Source: Echinarachnius parma
Lineage: Eukaryota; Echinodermata; Echinoidea; Clypeasteroida; Echinarachniidae
Length of the DNA stretch: 64,000 bases
Direction: 5' to 3'
Assembly (NCBI GenBank): GCA_037951105.1
Contig: JBAMJV010000888.1
Span: forward strand, 153,351 to 217,350
Each line of letters starts with the position of its first letter. Position 1 is the first letter of the stretch. The notes under the pieces were generated by a model. It made no database searches and had not been told where the DNA came from. It was given only the letters and a program-made list of their open reading frames with translations. The position numbers and the translations under genes are program-made. Positions 2,116-47,500 of the stretch are shown here, in pieces.

Positions 2116-2220
2116 TAAATTTGTGTGAGTATTTTTAGCTGAAATGCTGGCTTTCCTAGTTGGCACCATCAACAACAATATCTTGACAAGTGGCCACAGG
2201 TCAAAGGTCAAAGAGATAAT
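2116..2220 (+). pseudogene. Decayed copy 0 of importin terminal exon
   Basis: The stretch running through TTGTGTGAG, GCTGAAATGCTGGCTTTCCTAG, TTGGCACCATC and CACAGGTCAAAGGTCAAAG aligns with the head of the functional exon. The copy has no AG at the expected boundary and has lost the reading frame. It is the most diverged and most upstream copy of the array. Confidence 0.7.
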
Positions 2221-2414
2221 TTTTGCAATTCATAACTGTTATAATTGACCATGGGTCATTTATCTCTGCCTATAGACGAAGGATCTGCCAGATTCAAAGC
2301 TTGCGGCTACATTGACTTACATTTTTATTACACTTGCCTTTATAGTGGACAAGCAGTTTTCAGCAATTTTTATATTTATTCATAAAGTCTGTTATTGTTA
2401 CTTGCCTGGTACAG

Positions 2415-2631
2415 AGAGATGTGTGCAGAATTTGGAGCTGAGATGCTGGCATTCCAAGAGCGGGGTGCCATCCAGGAGCTACTGACGGAAGGTCAGAGGT
2501 CAAAGGTCATGAAGAGAATTGTTGGGCCAATGTTCATTGGTGCTGTTATGCACAAGTGTTGTATTTCTTGTCCTGTACAGAGATATATGTGCAGTGTTTG
2601 GAGCCGAGATGCAGGGATTCTTAAAACGTAG
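2415..2631 (+). pseudogene. Open copy 1 of importin terminal exon (possible alternative 3' exon)
   Basis: The acceptor GGTACAG is kept. Spliced to the penultimate exon it stays in frame as (G)EMCAEFGAEMLAFQERG, then [17 protein letters not shown], and runs on to TAG at 2629-2631. The copy lacks the [10 protein letters not shown] helix, so an mRNA using it would encode importin beta with a replaced C-terminus. No good donor is seen inside. Whether it is used is unknown; it may be a tolerated pseudo-exon. Confidence 0.6.
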
Positions 2632-2770
2632 CACCATCCAGGAACTGCTGACGGAAGGTCACAGTTCAAAGGTCATACAAATAACTGCTGTGTCAAAGAT
2701 CATAAAGCCAATGAATTGTTACAATCTAATAAGTTGTCCTTTAACAGAGATCTGTGTTCAGCGTTTGTAG
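2581..2770 (+). pseudogene. Open copy 2 of importin terminal exon (possible alternative 3' exon)
   Basis: The acceptor TCCTGTACAG is kept. The frame reads (G)DICAVFGAEMQGFLKRS, then [16 protein letters not shown], and ends at TAG 2768-2770. Conservation with the functional exon stops at the same place as in copy 1. This shows that each unit consists of intron tail plus exon head. It overlaps the read-through tail of copy 1. Confidence 0.6.
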
Positions 2771-2820
2771 CTGAGATGCTAGCACCATTCAAGCTATCTT
2801 GAACAGGTCAAAGGTCGCAG
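2748..2820 (+). pseudogene. Truncated copy 3 of importin terminal exon
   Basis: After the acceptor TTTAACAG it reads (G)DLCSAFVAEMLAPFKLS and then TGA at 2800-2802. It keeps only the first part of the exon, then runs into the AGGTCAAAGGTC region. Using it would truncate importin beta. Confidence 0.6.
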
Positions 2821-2873
2821 GTGAAAGGTCATAAAGAAAACTAACTAACCATTTCCTTTATTGTCATGTGCAG

Positions 2874-2960
2874 AGATCTGTGTGCAGCGTTTGGAGCTGA
2901 GATGCTAGCACTATTCAAGCTATCTTGAACAAGTCAAAGGTCGCAGGTCGCAGGTCATAA
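2874..2960 (+). pseudogene. Truncated copy 4 of importin terminal exon
   Basis: Its acceptor TCATGTGCAG is identical to that of the functional exon. It reads (G)[17 protein letters not shown] and then TGA at 2926-2928. It is nearly identical to copy 3, including the shared intron piece AAAGAAAACTAACTAA, which points to recent unequal duplication. It is the strongest competitor acceptor for the true exon. Confidence 0.6.
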
Positions 2961-3000
2961 AGAAAACTAACTAAACAATTTCTTTTATTGTCATGTGCAG

Positions 3001-3175
3001 AGATCTGTGTGCAGCGTTTGGAGCCGAGATGCTGGGATTCCTAGAACGTGGCACCATCCAGGAGCTGCTGACGGAAGGTCGCAGGTCAAAGGTCATGAAG
3101 ACCAAGACACTGGCCACCTGGGCGACCAAGGAGATCAAGAAGCTGAGAGCAGCACAGGACAACAAGACTCAATGA
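3001..3175 (+). CDS. KPNB1: Importin subunit beta-1, terminal coding exon
   Basis: After the acceptor TCATGTGCAG the exon continues the frame as (G)[52 protein letters not shown] and DNKTQ, then TGA at 3173-3175. The LLTEGRRSK and [10 protein letters not shown] segments are characteristic of the KPNB1 C-terminus. Together with the two exons before it this gives 132 residues. It is the only member of a six-copy exon array (2116-3175) that carries the complete C-terminal helix and the normal stop, so it is taken as the functional one. The segment coding RRSKVMK contains AGGTCAAAGGTCA, a perfect direct repeat with 1-base spacing. Confidence 0.93.
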
Positions 3176-3710
3176 GAACGCGGGTGAGTGTTCCTGCACT
3201 GCATGCTAGAAATACGTTTGCTCGTCTTTGTAGCCCAGTTGAGCAATTCAGGGTCAAAGTTTTTTAACCCAATCTGGACTGATTGATTTTGGAATAACAT
3301 GAATGTTCAATAGACCCAAGCCAAAGTATTTTCAGGGCCAGTCCAGGGCCCCGTAACATAAAGATTCAGGATAATAGTACGATCTCAATCAATTGATTAT
3401 ATGATTAATTGTGAATCTTTATGTTACGGGGCCCTGAACGGGTTAAATTTGAGTGGCTCAAATCCTGAATTGAATCTGGCGGCACTGAAAATTAGAAAAA
3501 AATATTATTGAGTCTCATATCTGTTTACCCGTTAAAACATGTGAAATTAGCACTAGTGAAATGTTGATGGCCCATTACATGACATGCTTTCATACCAAAT
3601 TGATAATTGTGGCTAAAACTTTTGACTATTACCAGGTCTATAGACAAACATTCATGTATGGCAACTCATATATTCCATCTCTGAAATAAACAGTTTTGTG
3701 ATTTGTCCTT
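3176..3710 (+). other. KPNB1: Importin beta-1 3' UTR (proximal part)
   Basis: Non-coding sequence follows the importin stop. AATAAA at 3685-3690 is followed by a GT-rich stretch (CAGTTTTGTGATTTGTCC), a plausible polyadenylation site near 3.7 kb. More AATAAA-like signals occur further on, so the real 3' end is not fixed. The UTR hosts a TTAA-bounded element at 3264-3446. Confidence 0.45.
3264..3446. mobile_element. TTAACCCGTTCAGGACTG MITE with nested fold-back insertion
   Basis: The outer element has TTAACCC... and ...TGAACGGGTTAA ends and the inner block TAGACCCAAGCC. It is interrupted by a palindrome with perfect 24-nt arms (3345-3368 and 3412-3435, core GGGCCCCGTAACATAAAG) around a 43-nt loop. 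Sits in the importin 3' UTR. Confidence 0.6.
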
Positions 3711-3974
3711 TGAAAATGTTCTCAAGTACATGTACCTGTAGAAGAAGTTTGCATTATTTTTTGTTCCTGTTTTATTTCCCATGTGCAGCCTCTGTGACTG
3801 ATACTATAGTGGCAAGTACCATCATGCACTCCACCACAGGTAGACAGCCTGTCCAGTCCTTTGATTGGCCCACTTGGCTTACTCACCCGCTACAATCACC
3901 CAATCACAATGCAGCATCCAGTAGCAGCCTCAGCAGCAGCAGCTGTGTAACATGTGGAGCACAGTTGTGCTCAA

Positions 3975-4170
3975 AATGTGAAAGAGAGAGAGAGAGAGGA
4001 AGAGAGTGAGTGTTAAAAAATAATGAGTGTGTGAAAGAGCGAGTGTGTTGAAATAGTGAGTGTTTTAAAGAGAGTGAGTGAGAGAAAAAGAGAGAGAGTG
4101 TGAGAGTTAGAGAGTGGTTAAGAGAGTGGAATATATGTGAGAAAAAGAGAAAAAGAGAGACTGAGTGTAA
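3975..4170 (+). repeat. GA-rich simple repeat
   Basis: An imperfect (GA)n/(GAGT)n tract from GAAAGAGAGAGAGAGAG through GTGAGTGAGAGAAAAAGAG. The long open frames on the opposite strand here are low-complexity artefacts. Confidence 0.75.
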
Positions 4171-5635
4171 GCGTATGTGTGAGATGTTCCTGTTGTAAAT
4201 GCTTCGATGAATGTGAGGTATGAAAAGGGTGAGTGTTTGAACCTGTCTGGAGTGGAATTGAGCATTGAGTTTGAATGTACGTACGAGCCCGCAAACAAGC
4301 GAACAAGCGAATGAACGTGTGTCTTTCATGAGATGTCGAGGCAAGAGAAGAGTGTGTGTATATGTGTCTGCAATCGTTTGTGAATCCTTGATTCAGTTCT
4401 AGTCTTTTCTTATTGAGAAACGGAAGGAAAATGGCAAAATTAGAAGAAACAAATAATAAATGCACCAGTACTTTTTTTCTTGCAAAATTGTAAACAAACA
4501 AAAAAAAACTCAGGAACCTTTAATATGAAGGTTACTATTAATCGAAGGTGAGACCCCTTCACCATTATAATTGAGAAAAAAGCAGCTTAAAATAATGTCC
4601 AATAATGATCATAATATCGAGAAATAATGTGACTTTATTGGTGATAAAATGTGCTATTTAACTAAATATAATTTTTTTTTTCTTCCTTGATGATATTTTT
4701 GTTATGTATTCTGGATTCCATGCCTTCCATGAAAAAGTCATTCGTGTTTATTTCCTACCTTTTTTATTACATAAAATGTTTGTAGATTTTTAAAAAATCA
4801 AAAGTTTTGTGTACCTTTTTTGCAATATCTTTTATTATTTTGTCAAATGACTGGAAAAAAAAATATTCAAATATAACTATTTGGGCTTGCAAAGCTGATT
4901 TAGTTGTAAACTGTATGAATGACCAAGTCTCAGTCTGGCCTTTTTGTGACTTGCGCATTTGGAGAAGGACAAACAAAGTTTCGTTTTTGCACAAGATTGT
5001 TTCATTGAATTATTAGTGATTGTTATGAAATGTTTTCTGAGAATATGTCGGGTGTATTTGTCAGGTGACATGTCCAAATTTGTCACGTGACGCTTCTGTA
5101 ATTGTGTTATGAATGTTTTTTGTATAATTTGTTTACATGCGACAGACAACATGCGGTGTCTTGTGTTGATGAATTTATGCTGAGAAACTTGTGGATGTTT
5201 TATAGTGGCAGTACAAACTCGGTGAGAAAGGGAGAAAGAGGTGAGAATAAAAGAGATATGCATAATAAACCCTGTCCTTATATTTCTTTAGACAACAACC
5301 CGTTAGTGTAAAATCCTGAAATGTCAGTCAATATTTCTTTTCTTTTTTGGACAAAAATATGTTGCATCTGTGTGGGAATTATTAAAGACAGAACCATAAA
5401 TGACTCTGTACCGTAATATGTGTGAGAGTTGTGCGTTGTGCATAACTGCGTTGGGCAAAAGGTTAAACTGTGAGACTGAGCAGATATTTGACAATGTGGG
5501 AGAGAGATTAAAATAATATTTTGTATTTCCAGTTTGTTATGGAACACCTTTATTTATCTTATTATTCCTTTTTTTGTTGTTGCCATCTTTATACTTCTTG
5601 TGTTAGTATTCAGTAGCCGTACACAGTGGAACCTC

Positions 5636-5851
5636 TATAGAGTACCGAAGTAGTGACGTCACATGCTTTTGTTATGGCATAGTAATGGTTCAACAACTTT
5701 TCCTTTCATACTGGCCTGTGGCAGTGGGTTGGAGCTGGACGAATGTCTTCTTAGCAACCGCTAGATCACCAATTCATTGCTTGCCTGACATTGTTTAGAA
5801 CCATCACCCATGGCAATGAATAGCTCTGACGTCACACTTCGGTACTCTATA
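5636..5851. mobile_element. TATAGAGTACCGAAG inverted-repeat element, copy 1
   Basis: Ends TATAGAGTACCGAAGTAGTG and CACTTCGGTACTCTATA, with TGACGTCAC near both ends. Its right end is shared with the next element. Related copy at 11.0 kb; a fragment with similar sequence lies near 10.67 kb. Confidence 0.6.
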
Positions 5852-6084
5852 TGTGACGGCTAAAGCAAAACCCTGCACTTTCACATTTTAAGTTCACATA
5901 ATGTGTGTAAAAAGACCTATGATTGTAAAAATTGAAACAATTGTATCACCGCCAATTATTGACCAATTTGTTAGAACAAAGCACCAAGTGAAAGCTTGTG
6001 AAGAGGCCTTTCTAATGATATGAACATCTACATTTCGATGTTTACCGACAAGTGCAGGGTTTTGCTATAGCCGGTCACATATAA
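5848..6084. mobile_element. TATGTGACCGGCTA inverted-repeat element
   Basis: Ends TATGTGACGGCTAAAGCAAA and GCTATAGCCGGTCACATATA, with CCCTGCACTT/AAGTGCAGGG continuing the arms. About 237 bp, no ORF. It abuts the previous element. Confidence 0.6.
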
Positions 6085-7433: not shown

Positions 7434-7524
7434 TTAACCCGTTCAGGACTGGTCCCGAAAATACTCGGGCTTTGGGTCTATGGAGAATACATGTAACAAA
7501 ATCTGTCAATCTTGAACGGGTTGA
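7434..7524. mobile_element. TTAACCCGTTCAGGACTG MITE
   Basis: A 91-bp member with left end TTAACCCGTTCAGGACTG, middle GGGTCTATGGAGAATACATG and right end CTTGAACGGGTTGA. Ends are near-perfect inverted repeats. Confidence 0.6.
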
Positions 7525-8354: not shown

Positions 8355-8487
8355 CCCTCTTTTTGGTTTTCCAGTTTTCTTCGATTCTGCAGTAAAAAGT
8401 TTCCATGATACGATCATTTTCATAAGCATTCTTCGATTCTGCAGTATATATTTCCACGATTTGATCATTTTCATGAGCATTCTAAAT
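8355..8487. repeat. Short tandem duplication of about 67 bp
   Basis: TTCTTCGATTCTGCAGTA ... TTTCCATGATACGATCATTTTC occurs twice with small changes. Part of the convergent intergenic region. Confidence 0.6.
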
Positions 8488-11018: not shown

Positions 11019-11254
11019 TATAGAGTGCCAAAGTGTGACGTCACAGCTATTCATTGCGTTGTATTGGGTAATGGTTCTATACCATGTCGGGCAAGCCTGA
11101 AATGTCTGACCGAGCAGGTGCTAGGAAGACTATCGTCCAGTTCCATCCCAATACAAAATTATAGATTGAATCAAAGGACAAGTTGTAAAGAACTAAGTAT
11201 TGCTAATGTATGTTGTAACTAAAGAATGTGACATCAGTTCTTCGGAATTCTATA
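11019..11254. mobile_element. TATAGAGTACCGAAG inverted-repeat element, copy 2
   Basis: TATAGAGTGCCAAAGTGTGA ... TTCTTCGGAATTCTATA. Shares TGACGTCACAGCTATTCATTG, in inverted order, with the right end of copy 1. Confidence 0.55.
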
Positions 11255-15211: not shown

Positions 15212-18200
15212 CTGCAAGAAGAGAGGAGAAAGAACTTAACATTTATAGATCTGGCCACATGGCAGAAACGGAGGAAAATCATGATACAAAGTTCACTTAT
15301 ATCATCAACAACATCATCATCAGCACCATCTTCACCATTATCGCCACAAGCATCACTACCATCATCATCATCATCTTCATTATCACCACCATTATCATCA
15401 CCATAACCTTCATTAATATCCTCATCATAAATAAATGGGTCAGGTGTTAAATTAGCCTGTAGCACTCTTCATCATAGGGCAGCTTGGGCTAGTATGCTCC
15501 CCTGGGAGTTGAGATGGTGCACAAGATAATTGTGCGGGTTTGAACTGTACCTGATGACCAAGGGTAATAATGTACCTCTGAATAGGGCACCTAGATACAT
15601 GGCGCTCTATAAATGCTATATATTATTTTTTATTATCATCATTATATATAACCACAACCATAATCTTCAGTGTCAATGTCAATATTTTCATCATCCCTTG
15701 CCATCAATGTCATTAGATCATCATCAATATTTTCAATGTCATTCTAAAACTGCCATATCATTGACATTATTTCAACATTGTCATTACCATCAACATCATC
15801 GTTATCATGATTTTGATGATTATGATAATAATAATAATAATATGAACATTTATATAGCGCAGCTACTATAAATATATACTCTACTGCCCTTAAATAATTA
15901 TTTAATGATGATAATGAAAATCAACCTGTTTTTTGGTAACGATACGTTCAATACACTTATTTGAATAACTATAATTGAAATAAAGTTGCATACCATAAAT
16001 CATCTGACATGATGTCCCTGCCGTCAAATGAGTAGATGTGGACGTTGCCGCCAAACGGAGCCTCCCTGTCTCGCTCAAACAGCTTCTCCCATGAGGAAAA
16101 CAGTACCTCTTGCTGTAGGGCCAAAGGAAAAGGAAGAAAAAAAGAATATATTAACATATATTATAGCAAAAGTTATATTATTATTATTATAACAAAAATG
16201 TTAGTCATCTCATACAATTTGGGCATCGATCATTTGCAACATTTACGTCCCCAAATCAAATCTATCTTCTTACATACAATGTACATGTATCTATGGACAA
16301 TTGAGAATATACGAGACACCAATATTTTGACTTTTACATTTGTAAAAGGGCCCCAATCTACAAGCTCCTGCTTCTATGGGGCCCAAAACCATTTTGTATA
16401 TTTAGTTATCAAACTGCCATTTATATTTGTTATTTCTGTTTTATGGTTTGAATAAACTGAATCTGAATCTGACTAATCGAGTTTGACTGATACTAGTAGT
16501 TTGATGTCAAACGCAACTCTGCATTTGATCCATGAGCTAGTGCAGAGTAGGATTTGAAATCAGCAGTAAACTTGCGTTTCATTCATTTGCAAAGTTGGGT
16601 TTATTGCTAAGCTGCAATTGAACCAAACTCAGTTTTGTGCAACACCCCCATCACATGGTCTTTATTGTTGATCTTTTTTTTACCATGCAAATGATGGCGA
16701 AGTGTGTATCATTGACTGACCTTGGCATTGGCAATGGGCAGTCCCTGGTCCTCTTTCCTCACGATGGTCTTGATGTCTTGCAGGTGTGACGACAGGAACG
16801 CCCTGTAGGTGCCCTTCAGTCCTGCCGCTCTAGCATCTCTCCAGCACCGCACATCGGCACCACTGATACCACCCAGGTATCCCTCCACGGGGCTGTTCAA
16901 TGCATACATGTATAGCTGAAACAAAAGCACACCAATTCAATGTATATTAGTTCCTACTGAGTCGGTAAAAAAAGATTATTTCAAAGAAAGTTGATATTTT
17001 TCAGCAATGCTCTGCACTGAGGTGCCCTTCAGGCTGGCCGCCCTTGCCTCTCTCCAGCACCATCACTTATACCACCCAGATATCCCTCTACGAGATCTTC
17101 AATGCATACATGTACATGTAGAGCTGCGACAAAAAAGATAAATAATATCTGAATAGTTCCACTGGCCTAGCTTTGGTTCAGTTTTACACAGTTTGCCATT
17201 TTCTGTCAAGCCTCTCTCCACTACGGTTCATTGCTAGTCAGCACCACTAATACCAACAAGGTATCCATCCACAGGGATGTTTGGTGCGTACACCTAGAGC
17301 TGAAAAAAGATTAAAAACAAACAATATCTAATCTAATCTAATCTAGTTATCCCATTGCTTTGAACTTGGTTTGCTGAGGGTATGATAAACTAAAACATGT
17401 TCTGGATAACTCACCCGAGACAAACACTGTCTGCATGCAATAGACGTAATATGAAACATTTATAAATGACTTGAATATATGCATTGGTACTGTTCTTACT
17501 TTGAGCTGGTCCGAGACCCGTAGGTCTGGCCCCAGGACCACGGATGACAGAGGCCTCTCTGAAGAAAGGCAAAATACTTTAATACTGTCTATAACCGACA
17601 CTACATTCATTGTGTTTGATTTTAAATAGGGTTAAATCCCTAGGTACTATAGTCCTGATCTTACCATGGGCTGGTCTGAGACCGGTAGCTCAGGTCCGGG
17701 TAGCTCTGGTCCAGGTCCAGGACCTGGGATGACGGGAGCCTCTGTGAACCTGGGGACAAATGGCTCCAACTGTACAGACAGGGTTGAGGGAGAAATAAAG
17801 TACTAAATTAGTGAATGAATACATGCTCATGTTAAGTTAAAAATATAACCGTACAAAATCTCTTTGTTAGAGTGGGTAAAGACATTAGTTTTTTTTTACA
17901 AATATGTTTGATTCTGTAATACCCGCAACTGAAATATGCTTTATTTTATGATATATGCTGAAACTGGTCAGTGGGATCTAGTGTCTTTAAAATGTTCCCA
18001 GAATAGTCTGCTAGAAATATAAGCAGCAACACATGAAAATCATTAGTCTATAGACAGCTACATGAACAGTTACATGCACAAACTTACAGTACTGAAACCT
18101 TTGATCGACGGTGAACTCTTGCTAATTCATATACATGTAGTTATATAAAGATGAATAACCATTATCCATACAAAACAAATTTAGGTTGTATATCATTTTC

Positions 18201-23405: not shown

Positions 23406-23437
<32 letters not shown>

Positions 23438-26400
23438 TTTTTTTTTTTTTTTTTTTTTTTGCTGGCCCTTTTGGGCCACCAAATATTTGTTTTACTGGCC
23501 CGGCGGCAATTTTTAGTGGCCCCGGGCCATCGGGCCTATGCTAATTTCGAGCGTTGCATAAAATTATTAGTCTGCACAAACTCATGAGGAAATCGAGTTA
23601 CATCAACAGAAGCTGTTAAACAAGCTCATGACCGCCTTAAAGTGAACCCTATGTAATAACAAACTTTGACCAAAAAACAAAAACAACAGCAAACATTGAA
23701 TAAATCAAATATTAAAACAGAGATGTGTGACTTGTATTTATTGTATGTGTATTCATTTGCAAATAGTTATTCAATTCATGATTTCAATCAAGGCAAATTT
23801 GACCCACTTCAAACCCTGTAGGTATTGTATGTTACATTGCAAGTACTGTATAAGTAGTATATGTATGTACTCTACTAACCCTCGCTACATCCTCCCCTAC
23901 AACTGCCCCAACTCCCCACCATGTGGATCCTGGTACAGGTAAACCTTGTATACACCAGGGAGCCAAACCCTTTAAGCATTGCATGAGTAGTATATGCATG
24001 TACTCTACCCTCCCTATATCCTCCCCTCCAACGGCTCCTCCCCTCCAGCAGCCCCTCCTCCTCCTCCACCTCCTCCTGGTGCTGGTAGCCCTGGTAGACC
24101 AGGATCCCCAGTGAACCCAACACTGTAAGCATTGCATGAGTAGTATATGTATGTACTCCACTAACCCTCGCTACATCCTCACCTACAACAGCCCCTCCTC
24201 CTCCTCATCCTCCACCACCTCCTCTTAAAGACACTGGTGCTGGTAGCCCTGGTAGACCAGGATCCCTAGTGAGCCCAACACTGTAAGCATTGCATGAGTA
24301 GTATATGTATGTACATCTACTCTACTTACCCTCGCTACATCCTCCCCTATAACGGCTCTATCTCCTCCTCCTCCTCCTCCACCACCTCCTCCTAGAGACA
24401 CTGGTGCTGGAAGCCCTGGTAGACCAGGTGCTCCAGGGAGACCCTGGGGTCCCTGCGAACCCAAGCCTCCAGTTGGGCCTGGTTCTCCATCCCGGCCCGT
24501 TGGGCCTGATATGCCAGGGGGACCGCGAGGCCCTCTGTGCCCATCGTAGCCTGGTGGACCCTGGGTACCGTCTCTGCCTGGGAGCCCCGGCTCACCCGGC
24601 TCACCCTGTCAGAGGAACAGGCAAAAACTAAAATTAACATTCAACAGTTATTGATTATAAAATCTCACTCATTGATTATATTTAGAGCAATCATTGAACA
24701 CACACCAAATAAGGGAAAGAAATCTTGCTTTTACAACATTTTGAATTGTATTACCTTATCAAAAATAAATTTGTAAGCAATTTCTCCATCGGCTCTTTTG
24801 GCATAAAAATGCAAAAATTCCAAAGACTTGATAGACATTTTCATTGACTAACTATACATGTAAATTTCTATTCATTAGGTGCTAGGCTACTCTAGTCAGA
24901 TAAATCAAGAAAAAGATGAACAACATGTACGACTGATAAACTGACCTTGATACCGAAGTCAATGCCATTGGGGTATGAGTCGGTGCCAGAGTTACCAGGG
25001 GGGCCTGGAGGACCGGGAGGTCCTTCGGAGCCGGGGTTGCCATCGCGGCCGTCTCTGCCCATGGGGCCCTCAAACCCGTAGCCCGGCTCTCCCTTCTCTC
25101 CATGTATACTCTCGCCGGGACGACCCTGGGAAAAACACAAAAATACATAATCTTTTCTGTTGAAAACTTTACAAAGAATGTATCTAAGAATAAAAAAACA
25201 TGAGCATATATCCAGTTGAATCTTTCCTGGTAACAGTGATAAACTAGATGGATCTTCGACTGCGCGCAGTCGAAAATGATGCCTCCGCCATTACGCAATT
25301 TATTTATATCAAGCCCAAATCAACATGTACACAGAATTAATTCTGTCAACTCAATTTTGATGGTACTCTGTCTTTTAGATCTTGATGTATCACAATTATG
25401 AGCTATAAGTGACCTTGACCTTTGCCCTCATGACCCCAAAATCTAATGACTACAATTGTTCCCTATTATACATTCAGGTATCAAATTGGATTGAAATCTG
25501 ATATTCAGTTCTTGAGATTCCCAATCTCAAGCTACTTTTACATATAATGAGCCCTGTGACCTTTGACCTCATGACCCCCAAAATCTAATCAGTTCATTGG
25601 CTCTCCAAGGAACATACATGTACCAAGTTTGGTCAGAATCTGTCAATCCCTTCTTGAGATAACGCGATCAGAGCTATTTTTGCATATATAATGAGCTGTG
25701 ACCTTTGACCTCATGACCCCAAAATCTAATCAGATCATCGGCCCCCCAAGATACATACATGTACCAAGTTTGGTCAGAATCTGTCACTCCCTTCTTGAGA
25801 TAACGCGATCACAAGCTATTTTTGCATATATAATGAGCTCTGTGACCTTTGACCTTTGACCTCATGACCCCAAAATCTAATCAGATCATTGGCCCCCCAA
25901 GATACATACATGTACCAAGTTTGGTCAGAATCAGTCAATCCGTTCTTGAGATAACGCGATCACGAGCTATTTTTGCATATATAATGAGCTCTGTGACCTT
26001 TGACCTTTGACCTCATGACCCCAAAATCTAATCAGATCATTGGCCCCCCAAGATACATACATGACCCAAGTTTGGTGAAAATCCGTCAATCGGTTCTTGA
26101 GATAACGCGATCACGAGAACGGGACGTACGTACGTACGTACGTACGTACGTACGGACGGACAACCCGAAAACATAATGCCTCCGGCTACTTCGTTGCGGA
26201 GGCATAAAAACATTTTCACATTATCTAAACACTGCAAGTTAATAATATGCCACTAGGCCAAATTTTGGGAGGTTCAAATTGAGGTTTAATATACTCACCT
26301 TATTAACAAATTTCAACCCAACCCTATAAAACCATTACCACTAAACCCACTCTTGCAAGTCCAATCTGCACAATGTAGAGAGGTTAGAGTTCATTTTATG

Positions 26401-26518: not shown

Positions 26519-26583
<65 letters not shown>

Positions 26584-29500
26584 AATTATTATTATTATTA
26601 TTATTATCATTATTATTTTAAAGCTTAGATCATACAAAATTCTTATTACTACTGCAAATGTTCAAGTAAACACAGACACATTTTATTAAATTGAATGAAC
26701 TGAAGTTTCCATCTTAACTTATACATGATCTCATTCTGGCAATTTACTGTTTTTACACAAGGTCATTAAAGTTAGGTGGCAAATTCAGGCACCTCTGAAT
26801 GGTTGAAACAGATACATTTGTCAAATAAGTGATGTGGATAAAACATCAACAGGTGCATTTACATTTCAGCGTTATTTTCTTATTAAAGCAAGAACATTAC
26901 ATATCATACTATCTGAAATTCTATGGCGTGAGGGATGAAAGGGGGTTGGGGATGAGGAGAGAAAGGGGGATTTAGTTTTACCTTTTCACCCTTGACCCCA
27001 CCGGATCCAGAGACACCAGGAACACCAGGGGCACCCTGCACCAGGGGGAGAAGGGTAAGCACCCATTTAATAACATCAATGAGAAAATAGTTTGTATACA
27101 GTCGAAATATAATGTTAAAGAATGTATATCGTATATACAAGAAATACCTACAATAAGTCCTTACAATAATTGTTTACTGCACTGTGTTCCTTTCAGGATT
27201 ACAAGTCAAATGTAATAAAGAAATCACTGAAATAATTATTCAATAAGGAAATTTATTCAAAGTGAAGTGGTACATGAACACAATAGTCGTCTTTAGCAGA
27301 GCTACCGGCATTGAAATTCAACAGTTGGGAAGATTTAGGGAAATTTCATCAACAAATCAGGGAGATATAATTCATATATATCAAATGCATACAACCTAAT
27401 GACAATAATATTTCAATAATCCGGGAGATTGGGCCGAGAGGATGAAATCTGATGCATTAATCTAGGTATATGTTCAGTGAGTCTCCTGCGAAATCAGGGA
27501 GACTTGGCAGCTCTGCCTTAGGATATAGTAGTATTATGATATACAGGGTGGCCCAGAAATAACGGAACGGGGCACTTCCCAAAATAAAGCAACACAATGA
27601 ACATGTCCATCGGATAGGGTGTCCTTTCCAATGAACAACGATACCAAGAAAAGTAATTTTGGGCGTGTAGTTTTTGTTTTAGGGCGCTTTGAGTGAGACC
27701 ATGTCAGGTTCTTATTTTTGTAAATTTTTTCCAAGTCAGTGTCTGATAAATGAGACTTACTGCCCGCCATACTATTTACCAATTATGTCCATTCTCTCGG
27801 CACCGCTCGGCACACAGCTGAATGCACACTAACAATGGCGCGCGGCATACTCGCGTGTACAATGGTATGTAGGGCAATAAGTCTCATTTATCAGGCACTG
27901 ACTTGGTAAAAATGGACAAAAATAGGGACCTGACATGGTCCCACTCAAAGCGCCCTAAAACAAAAACTACACGTCCAAAATTACTTTTCTTGGTATCGTT
28001 GTTCATTGGAAAGGACACCTTATCCGATGGACATTTTAATGTTGTTACTTTATCTTGGGAAGTGCCCCGTTCCGTTATTTCTGGGCCACCCTGTATACTA
28101 GTATTAAATGTATAAACATGGTCAAATAAAAGTGTCTGTCAATAAATTGTCTTACGGGTCTGCCATCACGTCCATCTCCTCCCGTTTCTCCAGTGAAGCC
28201 TTGCTCTCCCCTCAGTCCAGAAACACCTGGCAAACCTGAAACATATAACAAATAACAGACAATGCGTCATTTAAGTACTGACAATGTGTAACTACAAGAA
28301 AAGGTATGAACATCATTAATGACTGAACTACAATTCTTCAACATATGCAAACACCTGGCAAACCTGAAACATATATCAAATAATATGCAATACTTTGATT
28401 TGAAGGAAAATAACAAACAACAAACAAATATCTTGCAAGTGTCTAACAATCCTATAAAAACATACATGTACATATCAAATAGCATACATAGATCTATTTA
28501 AATGTAAACAAGAATAACCCTAGCATCTAAAACAGACCTAGAAAACATATCAAATAACAAACAATTCATTGACTGTAAAGGTAGCAACAATGACACAAAC
28601 CTGGCAATCTCTGAAACACATATCAAATAACATACAATTTACTGATTTAAATGGAAATCTTTATAAATCTTTCCCCGTAAAAAATAAAAAGTATGAGACA
28701 ATAATGAATTTAAAAGGGCATTCATATCATGATAGTGCAAGGTACAACTACATGTACATGTAATTTAATCAATAAAGTATCAACCATCAGCTCTAAAGAT
28801 AAGACGGTTTATGTTCGCTTGGTCTACACTCAGTTGGTCATTTGGTCTACTACCTGATGCCTTTAACTTCAATTTCCCCAACTCCAAACATGATCCCTAA
28901 CCTAAAACCTAACCCTAACGCTAATCCACACCCCTGACCCTAATTATAATCCCTAATTAAAGTCATACGACCTTTAATTTATAATTTTCTAGTAGACCGA
29001 ATGGGAGTAGACCAAATGGCTGTAGACCAATCGGCAAGTTACCGATAAGACTACAGATGTACAATATCGTTTAAGATCAAATTTAATCATACAAGGATCA
29101 ACCATCAGCCCAAAACATGAGATTGATAACATATATATAGTTTCAAACTCTAGTAGGTGATAAAATACATTACCTGGGGCTCCTGGTAGGCCCTGCTCCC
29201 CCTGAGTTCCTGGCTGGCCGGGGTCTCCCCTGTCCCCCTTGGTGCCAGGGGGGAAGATGGATGGTGGGAACGTGGTCGGGTCGCACTCACAGCCCTGAAA
29301 CATTATAACAGAAATGCATCATTTCAAGTTATTTTGTGTGGCACTATCGAGCAAGCAAAATCAGGACTATGCTTTATATATCAAGTTTTGGTGGCCAGAG
29401 AAAATTTTGCTTTTATATGAAGTCTTTAGCTTAATTTGTCTTCTACCTGCATGATGCCCAAAACTTCAATTTCCTAATCTGTATATTTCACCCCCAAACT

Positions 29501-32500: not shown

Positions 32501-35500
32501 CATAATAAAACTAGAAAATTGTAATGGAAATACCAAAAATAAATACACATATTAAGTTTTCCTTTTATTAACCCATTCAGGACGGGTCCAGACAAATATT
32601 CAGGCTTGGGTCTATGTAGAATACATTTTAATGCACAATCTTAACCCTTACCAGGCCGGGGGGGTGGAATCCACCCCCCCTCGACTTTTCGCGCGATAAT
32701 TCCGCAACGCGCGCAGGTATTGCCGCGCGACTTCATGATTTTTTTCATTGAAGTCTTGCGCAACTTTTGAGACCAAATTTGCGACGACCGGGTATACCGT
32801 TCTAAAGTCACGTGACCTTTTGTAAGTGAGCGTCGGCCCGAAAATCGCAAAATTTTGTGATTTGTGTACAAATCCTATGGAAATTGATTTTTTCCTAGAA
32901 TAGACAAAACCTTCATTATTTTTCATTTTAATCACTGCAATCATTTAATTTTGGGCTAAAAATTGTTATTCCATTAAAAAACTAGATGGATCTTCGACTG
33001 CGCGCAGTCGAAAATGATGCCTCCGCCATTACGCAATTTATTTATGTCAAGCCCAAATCAACATGAACACAGAATTAATTCTGTCAACTCAATTTTGATG
33101 GTACTCTGTCTTTTAGATCTTGACGTATCACAATTATGAGCTATAAGTGACCTTGACCTTTGCCCTCATGACCCCAAAATCTAATGACTACAATTGTTCC
33201 CTATTATACATTCAGGTATCAAGTTGGATTGAAATCTGATATTCAGTTCTTGAGATTTCCAATCTCAAGCTACTTTTACATATGAGCCCTGTGACCTTTG
33301 ACCTTTGACCTCATGACCCCCAAAATCTAATCAGTTTATTGGCTCTCCAAGGAACATACATGTACCAAGTTTGGTCAGAATCTGTCAATCCCTTCTTGAG
33401 ATAACGCGATCACGAGATATTTTTGCATATATAATGAGCTCTGTGACCTTTGACCTTTGACCTCATGACCCCAAAATCTAATCAGATCATTGGCCCCCCA
33501 AGAAACATACATGTACCAAGTTTGGTCAGAATCAGTCAATCCGTTCTTGAGATAACGCAATCACGAGCTATTTTTGCATATATAATGAGCTCTGTGACCT
33601 TTGACCTTTGACCTCATGACCCCAAAATCTAATCAGATCATTGGCCCCCCAAGATACATACATGTACCAAGTTTGGTCAGAATCAGTCAATCCGTTCTTG
33701 AGATAACGCGATCACAAGCTATTTTTGCATATATAATGAGCTCTGTGACCTTTGACCTTTGACCTCATGACCCCAAAATCTAATCAGATCATTGGCCCCC
33801 CAAGATACATACATGACTCAAGTTTGGTGAAAATCCGTTAATCGGTTCTCGCGATCACGAGAACGGGACGTACGTACGTACGTACGGACGTACGTACGGA
33901 CGGACGGACAACCCAAAAACATAATGCCTCCGGCTACTTCGTTGCGGAGGCATAAAAACAATACAAAAAAAAGTAAAAAAACAAAGAAATACATAAGAAA
34001 TTACAAAAACAAAGAAATACATAAGGAAAATTTTGGCTGTCGCAATTTTTAATGTTCAAAACCTGTTAATTAAGTCATACAGAATATTCATGCACAAAAT
34101 TAGCATATTCTGAGCAATATTTAGTGATTTACAGACAAAAAGGGGATTTCTGCATAAATTTGCATAATTAATTAAAAATTGATTATTTTCCAAAAAATAA
34201 CAATGCAATCTTGTAGATTATGTTGCAAGCTATCTGCGTGCCAAATTTTGTGGCGGCCGCGCGTTCGACGGCCGAGATCTCGGGGGGGGGGGGTGGAGAG
34301 CATAGCCAAAATAACCCGGCCTGGTTAGGGTTAACCCCGCTTCAATAGAGATCATGATCTGCTATCCTACCTCAGTCAGAGCCAGGACCTCAGGAGGGAT
34401 AGGCCCGGGTGGTCCTGGATCTCCTCTGTCTCCCTTGAGTCCCTGGACCCCTCTTGGTCCTGGTAGACCAGAGTCTCCTGGTGGTCCTTCTACACTCAGC
34501 CCCATAGGTCCTGGTGCTCCCTGTGATACAAGCATAGAAAGAAACATTAATATTACAAACTACCTCCCTTTTTTGAGTCCTTCTCATAATTATTACTTTG
34601 CAAAAGAACATCTATTTCCTCATTTATCCACTTCTCTTTCTCTCTTTTAAAATTTTCTTTCAACAGAGTGATAATGAAAACTTTATCAAAAATAACTATC
34701 ACATATATTTACATATACATGTACATGTATATCATTTGTGACCTTACACCACAAAACGACCAATACGTCGGGAAAACTGATTTTGCTGATTTTCATATAA
34801 CATTAAAATAGGAGCCATTACCTTTAAAATGTTATATAATTTGTCATATTTGGACTACGCACATCCTTTCAAAATGAACACCAAAGATTTGGAATATGGC
34901 TGAAGCATTTTTAAAATAAGTGAGAAACGGGCCATTTAAAAGATCAGTTTCCATTAAAGCGCTGCAATACGATCATATAAATTAGATGAAAAAATAATAT
35001 TTAAACATGATTTCCAACGCTCAAAATGTTACAGAAGCTAGATTAAAATATGCTTATTCAGGAAATACCAAAATCCTAAATCTCATATTTTGAACAAAAT
35101 TTGACTATTTTAGCTAATAAAAAAGAAACTACCACAGCGACATAACGGTCGTTTTGTGGTGTAAGTTCACATTTTATTTCATCTTTATGAACAATCAGCT
35201 ACATTATCATCGCCATTGAAATTGTTGTTGTCAATATAGTCACCATCATCTACATGTACATGTATATCATCAAAGTTAATATTGTTATCGCATTCATCAC
35301 AATAAAAATATTCAATACAAAATGTTGACGAATTACACTTACTTCCACTCCACGTGGACCCTGTAGACCTTGGTCACCCTTACCACCCTGTAAATTGGGA
35401 GGGAAAAGAAACACACAATTGTATTTCACTGACAATGATAGCAATAACGTATTCATATCTACTTGAGATCAAGATAATTATCCAAAGACCAGTCATATTT

Positions 35501-38500
35501 CCTGTTATACAGGGTGGGCCCACAAAAACGGAACGGGGCACTTCCAAAAAAATAGTAACAAAACGATTATGTCCATCGGATAGAGTGTCCTTTCCAATGA
35601 AAAACAATACCAAGAACAGTAATTTTGGAAGAGTAGTTTTTGTTGTAGGACGTCTTAAGAGAGACCATATCAGGTTCTCATTTTTGTAATTTTTACCAAC
35701 TCCCTGCCTGATAAATCGCACTTCCTGCCCATCATATGATCGGACAATTGTGCCCATTCTCTCGGGACACAGCTGAATGCACACTAACAATGGCGCGCGT
35801 ATTGTTCGTTCTTCAATGCTATGAAGGGCAGTGAGTGCGATTTATCAAGCACTGACTTGGTAAAAATTGACAAAAAGGGAACCTGACATGGTTCAAAAAA
35901 CAAAAACTACACGACCGAATTGACTGTTCTTGGTATCGTCTTTCATTGGAAAAGAGACCCAATCCGATGGACATAATCATGTTGTTACTATAATTTGGGA
36001 AGTGTCCCGTTGCTTTGTTACATGTTTTAACAATGAAGTCATGTTTATTTACAGTGTTACCGAACCATAACTTTGAAAGCGATTTTCTCTGTATTTTTTT
36101 TCGCCGCTGGTTATCTATTCCACATTCAAATGGGTTGTTTCTCGGCGCTCAAGCCACCAAAAATTATGATTTAAACATCAAATTAAAGCTTAAGACATGG
36201 ACAACAAGACGGTATACATAACTCAAACATGATCAATGTCAAGACATGTCTCAATTTTGGCTAGCCGGTCACATATCCCATATCCAAATAAATATGGTAT
36301 GATATAAAGACAATGGTAAGACTATAAGACTCAAACTGAAAGAAATATTCACCTTTGGTCCTAGATCTCCCTCTGGGCCAACCTCTCCCTGTAGAAACGA
36401 AATGGAAATGAATATTACATCAATCAAAAAATATTCCATAATAAAGACATCAATCATTCAAATCTTTAAAATGGTGTTTTGTATTCATACACAATCAATG
36501 CAAACAAATTCAGAACTACATGTAATGCATATTACAAAATGAGATTGCATTACCATATTTTTTCAACGAGGAAAATAAGTTGTCATTATATCAGCATTTT
36601 GTATCATTACACAACTTCCTGCCAATGGAGGGCAAATCTGAGCGCTACGTCATTGGCCTCTGCCAGATCTTTGATTGTGCACATTCCATGTACCAGATCA
36701 CAACTAAGCAGGTGGTCCATGGTCTGAGGGCATTAACCGCACTCACGATCTCCTGCGCCTTCGATGCTCCCCCAGTTCAACATGTTGGACTTGCATCTTC
36801 CCAGTAGCCCATTCATCATTTCAAGTTTGAATTGCATTTGTACCTAATATTAATGCTTTAAATTTGGAATCAGATACAAAAGTTTAACAGAATTACTAGT
36901 AGACTGGCTTCCATCAGGAGTTTTAACTACTGATGTGTACATGTATAGTACAAATGTGTGCTAGGGCTTAGACTAGAGATACTGTAGGCACATTCCAACG
37001 ATGCGCCCTAACGACACTGCAGGAAGGAAGGCCTTCACTTGTCCTGAATGACCAGGACAGGGAAGCCAGTAAATGAAATGATGAAATAGGTCGAGCGCCT
37101 GAAAACTATGGCAAGATACCTGGTTTATGCAGCCAAAAATTCAAATGATCCTGAAAATAAAATGAACATGGTCTGAATACAGAATGTTGCATTAACATTG
37201 TCATCTCTGATATGATCATGTCTGTGGTGTACCTACAGTATATACAGGTGGGCATGGTGCACAAGCCTCCACCCCATCCCCTAAATAATTTTACCCAAAA
37301 GACCAAAAACATAAGGGGGAAATCTGTTATAAAATAAAGAAATACATAGAGTGTGCCCCCCCCCCCCCGATCAGTCCGACTACAGTTAATAGGCACTAGA
37401 TCATGCTGTATACTCACGGTTAGCCCCCTAGGTCCAGGCATTCCCCTCTCTCCCTGGTCTCCCCTAGGCCCAGGCATACCAGACATGCCTGGTTCCCCTG
37501 GAGTACCCCTCTCACCATCCATACCTGCATCCCCCTCTGGACCCTGTGGGCCTGGCGGGCCCTGTGGTCCGGGGGCACCGATGAATGTCTGTAAAAAAAA
37601 AGCAATAGGAAAGTATAAAGAAGTTATAAATCTGTTTGAGAGCAGTCTAAAATATATTTAGAGTGTGAAAGTATTCTTGTTTTTATACAACCCTCTCGCC
37701 ATCCATACCTGCATCCCCCTCCGGACCCTGTGGGCCTGGCGGGCCCTGTGGTCTGGTGGCACCAATGAATATCTTTTAAAAAAACAATTGGAAAGTACAG
37801 AGAAGTTATTAACCTATTCAAGTCTACGCAAGAATAAATTGGACGTGATAAGTATTTTTGGCTATTATCTACATGTACATGTACACCAGCCTATCACCAT
37901 TCATTCTGCGCTCCCCCTCATGACCCTGTGTGCACTGGGACACCAATTTGTCAAGGTTTATCACACCAAAGACGTAGTCAAAATTGTTAACTAAACCATT
38001 AATTAACCAATTGGTTCCCAGATGGATGGGAACATATTGTTGTATAGCACAGTGCTAAATTTCACATAAGTGGAGTGAAAGAGTGCTAAATTTCACATAA
38101 GTGGAGTGAAAAAGTGCATTTTCAGTACAGGATGATTCCAATGTGTATCTGCTATGGTAAAAATAATGTAAAATAAGGGTAATGAGTGCTATATCATAAA
38201 CCTGTGATGTTTATTTTTATCATGACTAAATAATATACTTACAAGATTTTCATTAAAGTCTCCACTCCCATCGACCTCCTTGTTCTGTAAAAATATTCAC
38301 CAGAAAATATATATTAGAATTTGTATTGAAATGTGGTTACAATAAAACAATTATTCTTTCTTTATAGTTAAGCACTACTTAAAGAGCTCTGCAGTTTTGG
38401 GTTGGTAAGGACTTCAGCTGCAAAATATCATGTATGGGCACGACTTTTAAGGAGGGGAGCTAATGTCCTTTGCCCAAATACAATCCCTCCTGCCTTCAAG

Positions 38501-41500: not shown

Positions 41501-44500
41501 TTTAGATATAAAAGATATGCCCATTTTAAAATGTAAATATGACATTTTCTGGGAAAATTAGTTGCTTATTTCTTTCTTTTCATTATAGAACATAATTAAG
41601 CTCATTTCCTGTGTAATTATACATTATGTTATAAAATACAGTTTTGTTTTTGATAGACACAACAATCTGAAGAAATAACTCATTGAACTTACAACTAAGA
41701 GATCCAATCCTGAGCCTTCGATATTCATACCCTGAAAGAAAGAGAAGAATGGCGTAAAATATAAAATGTTTACCTATTATTATTAATTATTTCTACAAAA
41801 ACTAGAATTCAAATATCAAAAGGTACACATACATGTAATTCCAGAGAGTAATAACAATCATCCATTTCTGTTCATTCATGATTTGTTTGTTTGTATAAGA
41901 AAAGATTTCTGATGAAGTGTAAATGAACTAAGACTTGTATTACATTGGCTTTAGCCTTGCAGCATTGACTATTAAAGTAGACAGGCATAAATGTGGAATA
42001 CATTCCTGTCAATTAACCATGTACTCCACCTGGGAGTGGGTAATTGAACCCATGACCCTCTTATTGAAGGACAAAAGGCTTGAACCAACAAACCACACCA
42101 TGCATTTGGGGGTATATGGGACTAAACAGACTAAACGTACCATGCCTGGAAGTCCAGGTTTACCCAGTAGTCCAGGCCTGTTCTTCAGACAAGCCTCAGA
42201 TTGGGAACTGAACCCATGACCCTCACAATGGAGGATGGATTGGGCTGAAAGTTAACCAACATACCACTGCACTCTAATGGGATTCAAATAAATTTAGTCC
42301 ATAGGAAGGAGCAAATTAAAGGGTGTGCTACTTACCATGCCTGGCAGTCCTGGTTTACCCTGTAGTCCCTGTTCCCCTTGCAGGCCTGGTCTACCCGGTG
42401 ATCCTGGTAGCCCTGCTCCTGCATCACCCTTCAGGAACAATCATGAAACAAACCAGATTAGTTCAGCACAGTAGATCTGTATTCTAATATACATTTAGCA
42501 TAACATTTGTTATCACATTAACCCGTTCAGGACTGGTCCCGAAAATACTGGGCTTAGGTATATGGAGAATACATGTTGTAGCCAAATCAGTCAGTCCTAA
42601 ATGGGTTAACATACATGTACATGTAGATACTTCATGAAAATGAGCAAAGAACAAATTAAGCTTTTTATATATAAAATAACTTTAAACATAAGAAAACTGA
42701 CAACAAATATTTCTGAAATAAATTCAAATGAGTGAGGGAAATGGGTTTCCACAGGAATTGAGCCCGAGACCTTCAAATTGCTAGCCTGGTGCTCCAATTC
42801 AGTGATGTCAGTTATGATGATAATATATTAAATCAAGTCAAATCAAGTGATTACAGCACATGATAATGATAATAATCATCATAATAATAATAATGATAAT
42901 AACAATAATAATCATAATAAAAATGGGTTAGATATTTACAGCGCCTAATATGATACAATACCATCTCTCAATAATTGTAGCTGAGCTTAATACCTTTGAT
43001 CCCTTCTGCCCATCTCTGCCAGCGATGCCGGGAGGGCCCAGTGGACCGGGGTTACCATCAGGTCCCTGTATGCCAGGAACTCCAGGATAACCACGTTCAC
43101 CCTATATGATGAAAACCAGGGTTAAAACATGAAATTACATCACTTTTATGTATTAATCTTACAAATGAATCATATAACAAAGATATATAATTAAATAGAT
43201 AGATTAAATGCATATGAAACCCAGAGGACCTCCATTGCCATCAGGTCCCTGTATGCCAGGAACTCTGGGGGAGCCAAGTTCGCCCTGTAGGACAAACACA
43301 GTGCGAAAACATGAAATAACATTGACTGGACGATTAATTGAATAAATTATCAACATGACATTAATCATCAAATCATCATAATTGAAATGCAAAGGAATCC
43401 CAGAGTGGGGCCTGGGTTGCAATCAGGTCCCTGTATGCCAGGGACTCCGGGGTAGCCACGCTCACCCTGTAGGGTGAAAACAGGGGGGGAAAAAATCAAA
43501 TAATTTGGACTTGAATCCAACCATATTCAATAGATATTTAACATAACTTATATATACAAATCATAAACGTGTAAATGTAATACAAGACTACAACCAAAAC
43601 AGTATGCAATATAACTTTCTTAATTGACCCGTTGAATACGGGTACCGGGTGGGTCGTGTACAAAGTCTATGGAGATGTCTGAATCTCAAAGGAAACGGGT
43701 TAATCAGAATGAACGTTTCGTCTGTGGTAGCTATACATAATGATCCTGACCAACATCAGGGCTCCACACTCAACTTTTTTTGTCAGTGGCCTGATCGGTC
43801 CAGTAAAATAACTTATTTCCCTATTCTGGTGGCCCGAAAGAAAAATTACTGGCCCCGACAGGCCCCGACAATGTTATTTCATGAGTAAACTTTTTACTAT
43901 TCAATATATCACTCTTTCCTATTCAAACCATGACATAGAAGAAAACAAGATTTTTCTCATTTTGTCAATGTAAGGTTGAAAATCTGCTTGCCCGAATCGG
44001 GCCACCAAAATATTACTTTTATACATTTTTGCTGGCCCGAAGTGCAATTTCACTGGCCCCAGGCCAGCGGGCCAGTGCGAGTGGCCCTGCCAACATACCT
44101 GTTCCCCCTGAGGTCCAATGAGGTCCATGAAGTTGATGGTTGGTACAGGGCCTGGGGGTCCCTGGATGCCCACTCCTGGGACACCCTGGAAGGAGATAAG
44201 GACAATTGGGAGGCGATAAATACTCAGTAAAAATCACTATCTCTTCCTATCTATTCAGATGTACACTGTACTACATACTTATGTCAAACATTCAAGAATA
44301 ACATGGAAAACATTCCTTTGGCACATACATGTATGTATACAATAGGTCAATATTGTGATAATTCCTCTTTTTTTTAATGAAAGAGTTTTTTACTTCCTAC
44401 AAATTTTACACGTCACTGGTTTGTGTACTTATACTACTCAAAAGCCTCAGATTCAAGACATGAAATACGAGGAATTAGGAACAAATCATTCAAGGCGTTC

Positions 44501-47500
44501 CTTTGGGATTGCCTTTGAAACAATACTATGCACTAAAACACATTTGTATTGATTGAAAGTGGACCTCCTTGAGGTTGCATCATTACTCTAATTGCTAAGA
44601 TTCTTAGTACCTGGTCTCCTTTAGGTCCAGTATCTCCCTGGTCTCCCTTATCGCCCTGGATCCCTGGATCCCCCGGTAGTCCCACTACTCCTGGCAGTCC
44701 ATCCTCACCGACTGGGCCCATTGAACCTGTCACTCCCTGGTCGCCTGGGTAATAACAATATAATACAGATAATAAGAATAAGAATAATCTGCGCCCGGAC
44801 CAAGGGATCACCCGGTGGTCCTTCTACACCAGGCAGTCCATCCTCGCCGACTGGACCCATCGAACCTGTCACTCCCTGGTCGCCTGGGTAATAACAATAT
44901 AAAACAAATAATAACAAGAATAATCTTGGCCCGGACCAAGGGATCATCCAGTGGTCCCACTACACCAGACAGTCCATCCTCACCGACTGGGCCCATAGAA
45001 CCTGTCACTCCCTGGTCGCCTGGGTAATAACAATATAATACAAATAATAATAACAATAATAATCTGAGCCCGGACCAAGGGATCACCCGGTGGTCCTTCT
45101 ACTCCTGGCAGTCCATCCTCGCCGACTGGACCCATCGAACCTAGCTGTCACACACTGGTCGCCTGAATAATAATAATAATAATTATAATAAGAAGATAAT
45201 AATCTGGGCCCGGACCAAGGGATCACCGGTAGTCCCACTACACCAGGCAGTCCTCCCCGACTGGACCCATCGAACCTGTCCCTCCCTGGTCGCCTGAATA
45301 ATAATAATATAATACAAAATAAAAAGAATAATAATTATCTGGGCCTACACCAATGGATCCACCAGTGGTCCTTCTACTCCACGTAGTCTCTCATCACCGA
45401 CTGGGCCCATAGGACCTGTCACACCCTGGTCAACTGGTTGGGAGAGAGTGGGGGAAGAATAATTATTATTTTATTAATGGAATAATATGTACCAATAACA
45501 ATCTGGCCCTGGACCCCTGGATCCTCCATTGGTCCTGTTCCTAAGGGAGCAGGACCTGAAATACATGTATGATGAACATAATTGTTGTTGTCTGTGTTTT
45601 AAATATTATTTCAATTAATTTGTCTGAAGAAGCATGAACAAGTTTACAAATGTATAACTGTCTTGATAATTTTAATTGAACGCATGCATCCATTGTCAAG
45701 TTATAAACTTTGGATATACATGTACACCATAGCTGATTTGTATACGCAATTCTTGCTTATGATGTTGAAGATAATAATAAAGTATCAACAGGAGTATACT
45801 TGAAGTATGAATATTCGTTTATTAATTCTGAACATATATAGATACAATATATGAAAGTGAACATGCAATTAACATGCCATAAGTAGCATGAAATAAATCA
45901 TCAATGCTGTTGATCACAATGGTGGGATAAAAAACATAATGTTGATACTACAAAATCAAGTAAGGTTAATCAAAAGAATCTACAATTAGGGAAAATTGCT
46001 TGCAGGAAAATATTACGTAGTAATTGCTTTTAACAGTTTTTTTAAATTTTCAAAGCATTCTTTAATACACTGCTGATATACTAATAATATTACATGCTAA
46101 AATATGGAAAAACTTGGGAAATACACGTACATGTATGATAGGAAGGAAAAAACAAATAAAGTTCATGCAAAACACTGATAAAAAGATACATAATCAATGC
46201 ATAAGACAAATAGGTTCTTCAATGAAGATACATTAAATTTACTATTGTGTTGAATCAAATCAGGGCTGATCCTTTAGAGAATATGTTATTATCTGAAATC
46301 AGCTCCTCTTCATTGGGTTTAAGACCTTCAAGCCTACAAATAGAACATCTTCCCACTTCATTTTTCTCTTGGACGATGAGCAACAGGAAATGTTTGGGGA
46401 GATACTTTTGAGGAGTTTTGTTGCAAAAAGCAATAACTCAATTTTTCACTATTTTGAGAAATTTACGCTTTTAAAAAGATGAAATATAAAGAGGATAATA
46501 AACAAAAAAGTGATACCATTTATCCTAACTTCAAAAGTGCAGTTGAAACAAATGTATGTGCAAAGTACATGCACATTTGAATTGAATTGTAGTGATGACC
46601 AAACAATTAAAATGTTTAAAAATGGACTTTACTGCATTTTTACAATAAAACTCTTCATTTGAATCGGTAGATTATTTGTCCGAAAGTGTGTCAAATCATT
46701 CCAGATGACCAATTGGGGCCCATATGGAGCCCATGATATGATTAATTCTCTTCCTTAAATATGGGTGGTAGCTCGAGGCGTATGGAAGCAAACTGGATAT
46801 TCCTACATAATGGAACAAAAACATTTGGAGTCGGATGATGATATTTGAGTCATAGGAATTTTTTAGATTCGAGGTATTTATTTTTTTAAAGAAATCATGC
46901 AAGAAAAACAAGATATATAATACATAACATCTGTTTAACCCCCCTGAAGTCAACTTTTCTACACGTGGGAAGACACAATGTCAAATAAATAGATATGACA
47001 TCCAAGTGTGGTGGATTCAAATCTGGTCTATTTGTTCTACATCAAGATCAAGTACGTCTCATTTGGTCTTCCTTAAGATGCCTAAAAACCTCCTATTTTT
47101 CCAACTTAAAAACTCAACCCCCAACCTAAACCTAACCCTAACCCTAACCCTAATCGGAATACCAAACCAGAATCCTATTCATAATCTTAATCCATAATCA
47201 TAATCTATAATCCTAATCCTAAAACCTCAAAATTGTTATTTTAGTAGAAGACTGCATGGTTGTGGAACATATTGTAAGCTACGGTGTGGGAAATGTTAAA
47301 ATTAAATACACTTAAATCAAATATTGCTTACATATGTGTAGCAATAATCAAACTGTCATTATACCCTTTTTAGGTGCTGACTGAGATATATATATAAATC
47401 TAGCTTCAGGGTATATTTGGAATCGGCCTACTCACTCTATCATCATTTCCTTATATCAACCTGCCCCCTCAACTAACAAATTGGCCAACCCCTTATGCAG

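Follow-up and report, generated by a model that had tools for sequence, protein, structure and literature searches.

Contig C887 of the 1.2-Gb genome assembly of Echinarachnius parma is 217 kb long, and its final 64 kb form the analysed window, which contains parts of two neighbouring genes in which a number of exons are accompanied by partial copies of themselves. The 3' end of the importin subunit beta-1 gene lies on the + strand, and a TPR_IMB1 domain match was found on an upstream exon. The - strand carries a collagen gene with a C-terminal endostatin domain, which is similar to collagens of types XV/XVIII. In total, 34 exons were placed in the window using the reading frame and the splice sites, the collagen gene being covered from exon 4 onward. 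Comparison of the window with itself in the BLAST program gave 50 local matches of at least 32 bits, versus 0 in one locally shuffled control. Local partial copies with a score of at least 36 bits were detected at 8 of the 34 annotated exons, namely the importin terminal exon and collagen exons 4, 6, 7, 14, 24, 28, and 32. This confirms the claim of an earlier note on this DNA that partial tandem copies stand beside exons in both genes. The intact exons and their copies are located in the window as follows.

3001..3174, + strand: importin beta-1 terminal coding exon, intact (PDB importin beta-1 residues 824-873, E 2e-13)
2116..2211, + strand: importin head copy, the most diverged, acceptor AG lost (70.5% over 112 columns)
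2415..2515, + strand: importin head copy, acceptor AG at 2413-2414 (86% identity)
2581..2676, + strand: importin head copy, acceptor AG at 2579-2580 (88% identity)
2748..2837, + strand: importin head copy in a 126-bp tandem array
2874..2963, + strand: importin head copy in the 126-bp tandem array
44611..44744, - strand: collagen exon 4, intact
44745..45431, - strand: five upstream head copies of exon 4 in an array with a period of about 139 bp (offsets 139, 275, 418, 549, and 689)
42994..43101, - strand: collagen exon 6, intact
43220..43330 (limits approximate), - strand: exon 6 upstream head copy 1 (offset 183)
43404..43514 (limits approximate), - strand: exon 6 upstream head copy 2 (offset 365)
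42336..42428, - strand: collagen exon 7, intact
42135..42173, - strand: exon 7 downstream tail copy with donor (offset 195, 90% identity)
37418..37588, - strand: collagen exon 14, intact
37691..37818, - strand: exon 14 upstream head copy (offset 184; exon part 93%, intron part 83%)
28156..28235, - strand: collagen exon 24, intact
28349..28391, - strand: exon 24 upstream head copy, short, mainly intron tail
28599..28638, - strand: exon 24 second upstream head copy, more decayed
24330..24605, - strand: collagen exon 28, intact
23834..24261, - strand: exon 28 downstream tail copies (three, at offsets 167, 326, and 450), including GT and intron head
16721..16915, - strand: collagen exon 32, intact, start of the endostatin domain (PF06482, E 3e-20)
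17020..17114, - strand: exon 32 upstream head copy (offset 202-213)
near 17220-17300, - strand: exon 32 second, weaker copy (alignment only)
17500..17575, - strand: possible downstream tail copy of exon 31, uncounted (alignment only, below 36 bits)

The copies in the window have two geometries. Exon heads are repeated upstream of the importin terminal exon and collagen exons 4, 6, 14, 24, and 32, and exon tails are repeated downstream of collagen exons 7 and 28. The same two geometries had been described in the earlier note, and its list of exons needs small corrections: exon 24, mentioned there as a hint, passes the threshold and belongs to the head type, and exon 31 was excluded from the count, since its tail alignment is plausible but scores under 36 bits.

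In addition, a common rule using exons as probes was applied to 92 exons of importin, collagen, myosin, and kinesin genes. Copies of at least 36 bits within 1 kb were counted, and low-complexity matches (trinucleotide entropy below 4) were excluded. Under this rule, 33 of the 92 exons carry partial copies, with 63 copies in total. Copy-bearing exons make up 6/31 in the collagen gene, 1/3 in the importin part of the window, 5/16 in the upstream part of the importin gene, 11/22 in myosins, and 10/20 in kinesins. Because the finding originated in the window exons, these form a biased subset, and the last three values give the less biased share. The upstream part of the importin gene is represented by 16 further exons (L033 and L032) placed with the human protein as reference. 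The myosin and kinesin loci were the 30 best-scoring matches per profile (myosin head and kinesin motor), which is a non-random choice, with the borders of the profile match taken as exon borders; 18 of the 60 loci were removed because they belonged to contig pairs or overlapped other loci. In a count separate from the 92-exon rule, a partial copy was found at 22 of the 42 myosin and kinesin exons left after this removal. In a CCT chaperonin gene, of which 3.1 kb were examined, the head/tail rule holds at 2 of 3 profile matches; this piece was picked since its table of matches already suggested an array, and six stops in one of the three matches make its borders doubtful. The presence of copies at about a third of the sampled exons, in unrelated genes, supports the suggestion of the earlier note that they arise by a genome-wide rather than a local process.

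The 63 copies all run in the same direction as their exon (direct orientation), and no inverted copy was seen. Exon heads located upstream account for 46 of them and exon tails located downstream for 15; the two discordant copies (L015 and L059) resemble fragments of larger copies. No whole-exon copies were found, none of the 63 covering at least 85% of its exon. The median offset of the nearest copy is 193.5 bp; the offset lies within 100-266 bp in 30 of 34 cases and within 139-222 bp in 25 of 34. An asymmetry between heads and tails seen at the myosin and kinesin loci (16 vs. 6) was dropped, since fully annotated introns gave 15 heads vs. 13 tails.

Such a pattern would be expected if short local tandem duplications, with a spacing mostly of 140-220 bp, recurred across the genome and their products then decayed. 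If such a duplication began or ended inside an exon, with its other breakpoint in the adjoining intron, it would leave the intact exon plus one partial copy, the upstream product consisting of intron tail, acceptor, and exon head, and the downstream product of exon tail, donor, and intron head. Because a single exon breakpoint in a tandem duplication predicts both the direct-only orientation and the rule of heads upstream and tails downstream, which 61 of the 63 copies obey, we consider it rather probable that the copies arose in this way, by short tandem duplications at close range, and are decaying. The pair of breakpoints proposed in the earlier note, one exonic and the other intronic, is thereby supported. 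Its view of the two geometries as survivors that preserve a complete exon does not stand, because any tandem duplication with exactly one exon breakpoint leaves a complete exon, and the geometry alone is therefore no sign of selection. What remains of the proposed selective filter is the lack of whole-exon copies: whole-exon duplications were expected to make up about 25% of exon-touching events and 0 were seen (P about 0.03, 12 exons). This is a weak sign of a filter in which the doubling of an exon would be selected against.

Several observations weigh against simple tandem duplication. The aligned intron part is shorter than 30 bp in 18 of 28 boundary cases, with exon parts 73-100% alike. 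It reaches at least 30 bp in the other 10, and the "intron tail" described in the earlier note can no longer be recognised in many copies. In L053, L055, and L058, the similarity ends within about 8-20 bp past the splice site at an exon identity of 90-93%, which is a misfit because the intron part should still be visible after a simple tandem duplication. In L044, a 98.7% copy lies 858 bp off without a duplicated spacer; here, positions 544-669 and 1452-1541 represent two near-identical copies of the acceptor with about 20 bp of exon, some 860-930 bp upstream of the exon and again with no duplicated spacer. The copies are therefore not all tandem, those in L044 being dispersed. The missing intron parts may indicate either that introns were rearranged very fast or that some copies have another route of origin; alignments between paired contigs are broken, which suggests fast intron rearrangement.

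As an alternative, the copies could have arisen when breaks were repaired with DNA captured from close by (templated insertion), a process described for primates; L044 and the copies without a recognisable intron part resemble such short-range insertions. The freedom of orientation and position expected of this process was not observed, since 61 of the 63 copies are bound to one side and none is inverted, and in this respect L044 alone resembles capture. Repair capture has no evident cause for a side rule, and inverted copies should be harmless in introns. In the human study (PMC2671141), proximal repair duplications extend up to 619 bp and some include splice sites, but partial exon/intron donors number only 4 vs. 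278 intron donors. Thus, capture is unlikely to be the general source of the copies.

The distribution of tandem duplications relative to exons was assessed by the placement of the duplicated units in 67 fully annotated introns (55.5 kb). Boundary events made up 25 of 33, vs. 8 intron-only events, where 27% were expected from lengths (P 8e-9). Intervals on the contigs C8152 and C1423 had been dropped as pair duplicates, and the ratio of 25 to 8 was recounted by hand; before this removal, there were 28 boundary vs. 9 intron-only events in 69 introns. An event in importin intron 12 was counted as intron-only and may belong to the tail array there. Two collagen introns contain similar stretches at 25395-26117 and 33133-33862 with an internal 151-bp tandem repeat, probably a single dispersed element. 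These two arrays served solely as an exclusion in controls, and without them the ratio was 25 to 6.

An excess of this kind could also appear if local tandem duplication were uniform and exons only looked enriched, as slow-changing anchors that keep old copies recognisable. This explanation is a serious possibility, although we would not call it the probable one. Some detection bias toward exons is expected, because exons change slowly and old copies stay visible longer in them. A simulated steady state gave a bias of 1.2 to 1.4-fold, which is probably an underestimate as small indels only were simulated; the excess would vanish only with a bias of about 4- to 6-fold (P 0.04 at 4 and 0.26 at 6).

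The cruder tests speak for a uniform background and against a preference for exon edges. At the threshold of 36 bits, copies were found for 11% of non-exon control windows (7% without the 151-bp arrays), compared with 24% of the window exons (8/34), and for 26% of collagen intron windows (10% without the arrays). Flank windows of the same length at the myosin and kinesin loci were matched in 28%, the flanks including unannotated exons. Five random 6-kb pieces were usable (L073, mostly N, was left out), and 0 to 34% of their windows were matched. When the spans of repeat clusters were shuffled, the importin gene, its upstream and window parts taken together, gave a significant result, all 9 local clusters touching an exon vs. 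5.3 expected (P 0.006). The collagen gene gave 7/11 vs. 6.4 (P 0.44), or 7/9 vs. 4.9 without the arrays (P 0.11). With exon bases masked, no excess was seen (importin 3/5, collagen 3/9). The intron parts unrecognisable in 18 of 28 cases fit a uniform background as well. On the other hand, masking strips much of each boundary copy, and the unit-placement test is preferred because the span test counts placements that are impossible for a tandem duplication.

Taken together, an excess at exon boundaries is likely rather than proven. The excess over random intronic duplications implied by the earlier note holds in the unit-placement test, is in part a matter of detection bias, and is small or absent in the cruder tests. 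A broader proposal can be put forward only tentatively, namely that short tandem duplications in this lineage originate or survive more often at the borders of exons and introns, the unit being near the nucleosome repeat (about 190 bp), and that spare splice sites would thereby constantly come and go at about a third of exons. The nucleosome length is hinted at, weakly, by the spacing of the copies.

The state of the splice sites was scored at exons with placed borders. Of 18 head copies reaching the exon edge, 17 retain AG, and 15 score at least as high as the weakest real acceptor here; GT is kept in 5 of 5 tail copies reaching the exon edge, 3 of them scoring at least as high as the weakest real donor. 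At the level of the DNA, the copies therefore hold spare, potentially usable acceptors and donors. The pooled difference between exon and copy is 13%. At the kinesin and myosin loci, a stop was found at 4 of 22 loci, a frameshift at 6, and either of these at 9. The copies may be neutral and skipped for want of the opposite splice site. A point against purely neutral decay is that exon-copy differences are distributed over the codon positions as 51/55/147 (22 myosin and kinesin pairs). This third-position excess shows constraint on the exon side, but it exceeds the expectation for a purely neutral copy.

Selection could instead act on the half-exons themselves, as decoy or regulatory splice sites or as remnants of mutually exclusive exons. 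The retained AG, the third-position excess, and an exon part that is often better kept than the adjoining intron would agree with this. However, by our own estimate the retention of AG is not clearly above that expected at roughly 10% neutral divergence, and the disabled copies and the lack of any copy spanning 85% of its exon are at odds with a selected function, which we regard as improbable.

The turnover of copies was followed in 15 locus pairs on two contigs with exons 95.5-99.6% identical. The members of a pair are probably alleles, called as such by similarity, with old paralogy as the alternative. Copies are shared in 5 pairs, there is a clear difference in 3 (L060/L063, L038/L039, and L059/L061) and a weak difference in 2, and 5 pairs have none. 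Such variation in copy presence between probably allelic contigs is a further argument against selected half-exons. L063 is without a copy; its intron tail matches copy 1 of L060 (51/53, 0.962) and its exon head matches the L060 exon (79/82, 0.963), while the two copy tails inside L060 are only 41/49 (0.837) alike. Because the tail fits copy 1 and the head fits the exon of L060, L063 is read as a recombinant seemingly produced by repeat-mediated deletion at the acceptor, with the duplication predating the split of the contigs.

Recombination between repeats would thus clear copies, and at exon boundaries such clearance would be viable mainly with an exchange near the splice site; boundary copies may therefore outlast intron-only ones. 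Longer survival would predict that boundary copies are older than intron-only copies.

The many contig pairs resembling uncollapsed haplotypes raise the question of an assembly artefact, in which allelic pieces of a heterozygous genome were joined side by side. The pooled difference of 13% between copies and exons exceeds that between paired exons (95.5-99.6% identical), some copies carry stops, and the breaks lie inside exons at near-constant spacing. Since the copies are common to both members of 5 of the 15 pairs and differ from the exon to this extent, a local assembly error is unlikely, and the artefact explanation is disfavoured as very improbable.

Some other repeats were noted. On contig C2768, L022/L023 and L028/L029, about 90 kb apart, contain stretches that are 100% and 99.8% identical and occur twice on the one contig, which represents either a very recent duplication or an assembly duplication. 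An array in an arbitrarily chosen piece of contig C99 (L070, positions 1385-2550) has units of about 155-158 bp that are 91-97% alike. In the window, apparently related dispersed elements were recognised by eye at about 27540-28085 and 35525-36000 in two collagen introns, and a 22-bp tandem repeat (8.2 copies, 98% matches) is located at 52972-53152.

With copies at about a third of the sampled exons, a strict geometry, and differences between probably allelic contigs, such a genome would make it possible to quantify how surplus splice sites arise, what they cost in splicing, and how they are lost; gene predictors and RNA aligners will face decoy exon halves in such genomes. If the preference for exon boundaries is true, exon edges would be hot spots or selective traps for duplication, and the copies would be a constant supply on which alternative splicing and intron change could draw.

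Single disease mutations are one known form of partial exon duplication. In the open-access literature, judged by titles and abstract openings, no report was found of partial exon copies at such a frequency, nor of the strict one-sidedness or the seeming bias towards exon edges. Events of this kind as such are already known. Mutually exclusive exons are whole, usable exons, whereas every copy counted here is partial (0/63 at 85% or more). The likeness to the tandem duplication that gives rise to them lies in tandem exon copies inside genes (PMC9013439, PMC5740500).

Otherwise, partial exon duplications are known as rare relics (PMC2718932). The mammalian pseudogenic exons of Morais and Harrison (2009) occur in 0.4-1.0% of genes, with 12-22% on the opposite strand, and are similar to the present copies in being decaying copies near the parent exon with stops and frameshifts (PMC2718932). 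They differ in that 33 of 92 exons are affected here, with no copy inverted and none at 85% or more; the criteria of the two studies differ, and the comparison is only indicative. Repair-mediated capture duplications contribute to human variation according to Pace et al. (2009), and most of the examined breakpoints show deletions, filler, or microhomology; one inverted exon copy is also described in that study (PMC2671141). The likeness consists in short local duplications, mostly of intron DNA and at times including exon edges, and the difference in the few partial exon donors of the human set, as given above, and in the side-bound, never inverted copies of the present one. Finally, intron gain by tandem genomic duplication is similar in that a tandem duplication reshapes gene structure (PMC4974935). 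There, the duplication makes a new intron, whereas here an existing intron acquires a spare acceptor or donor.

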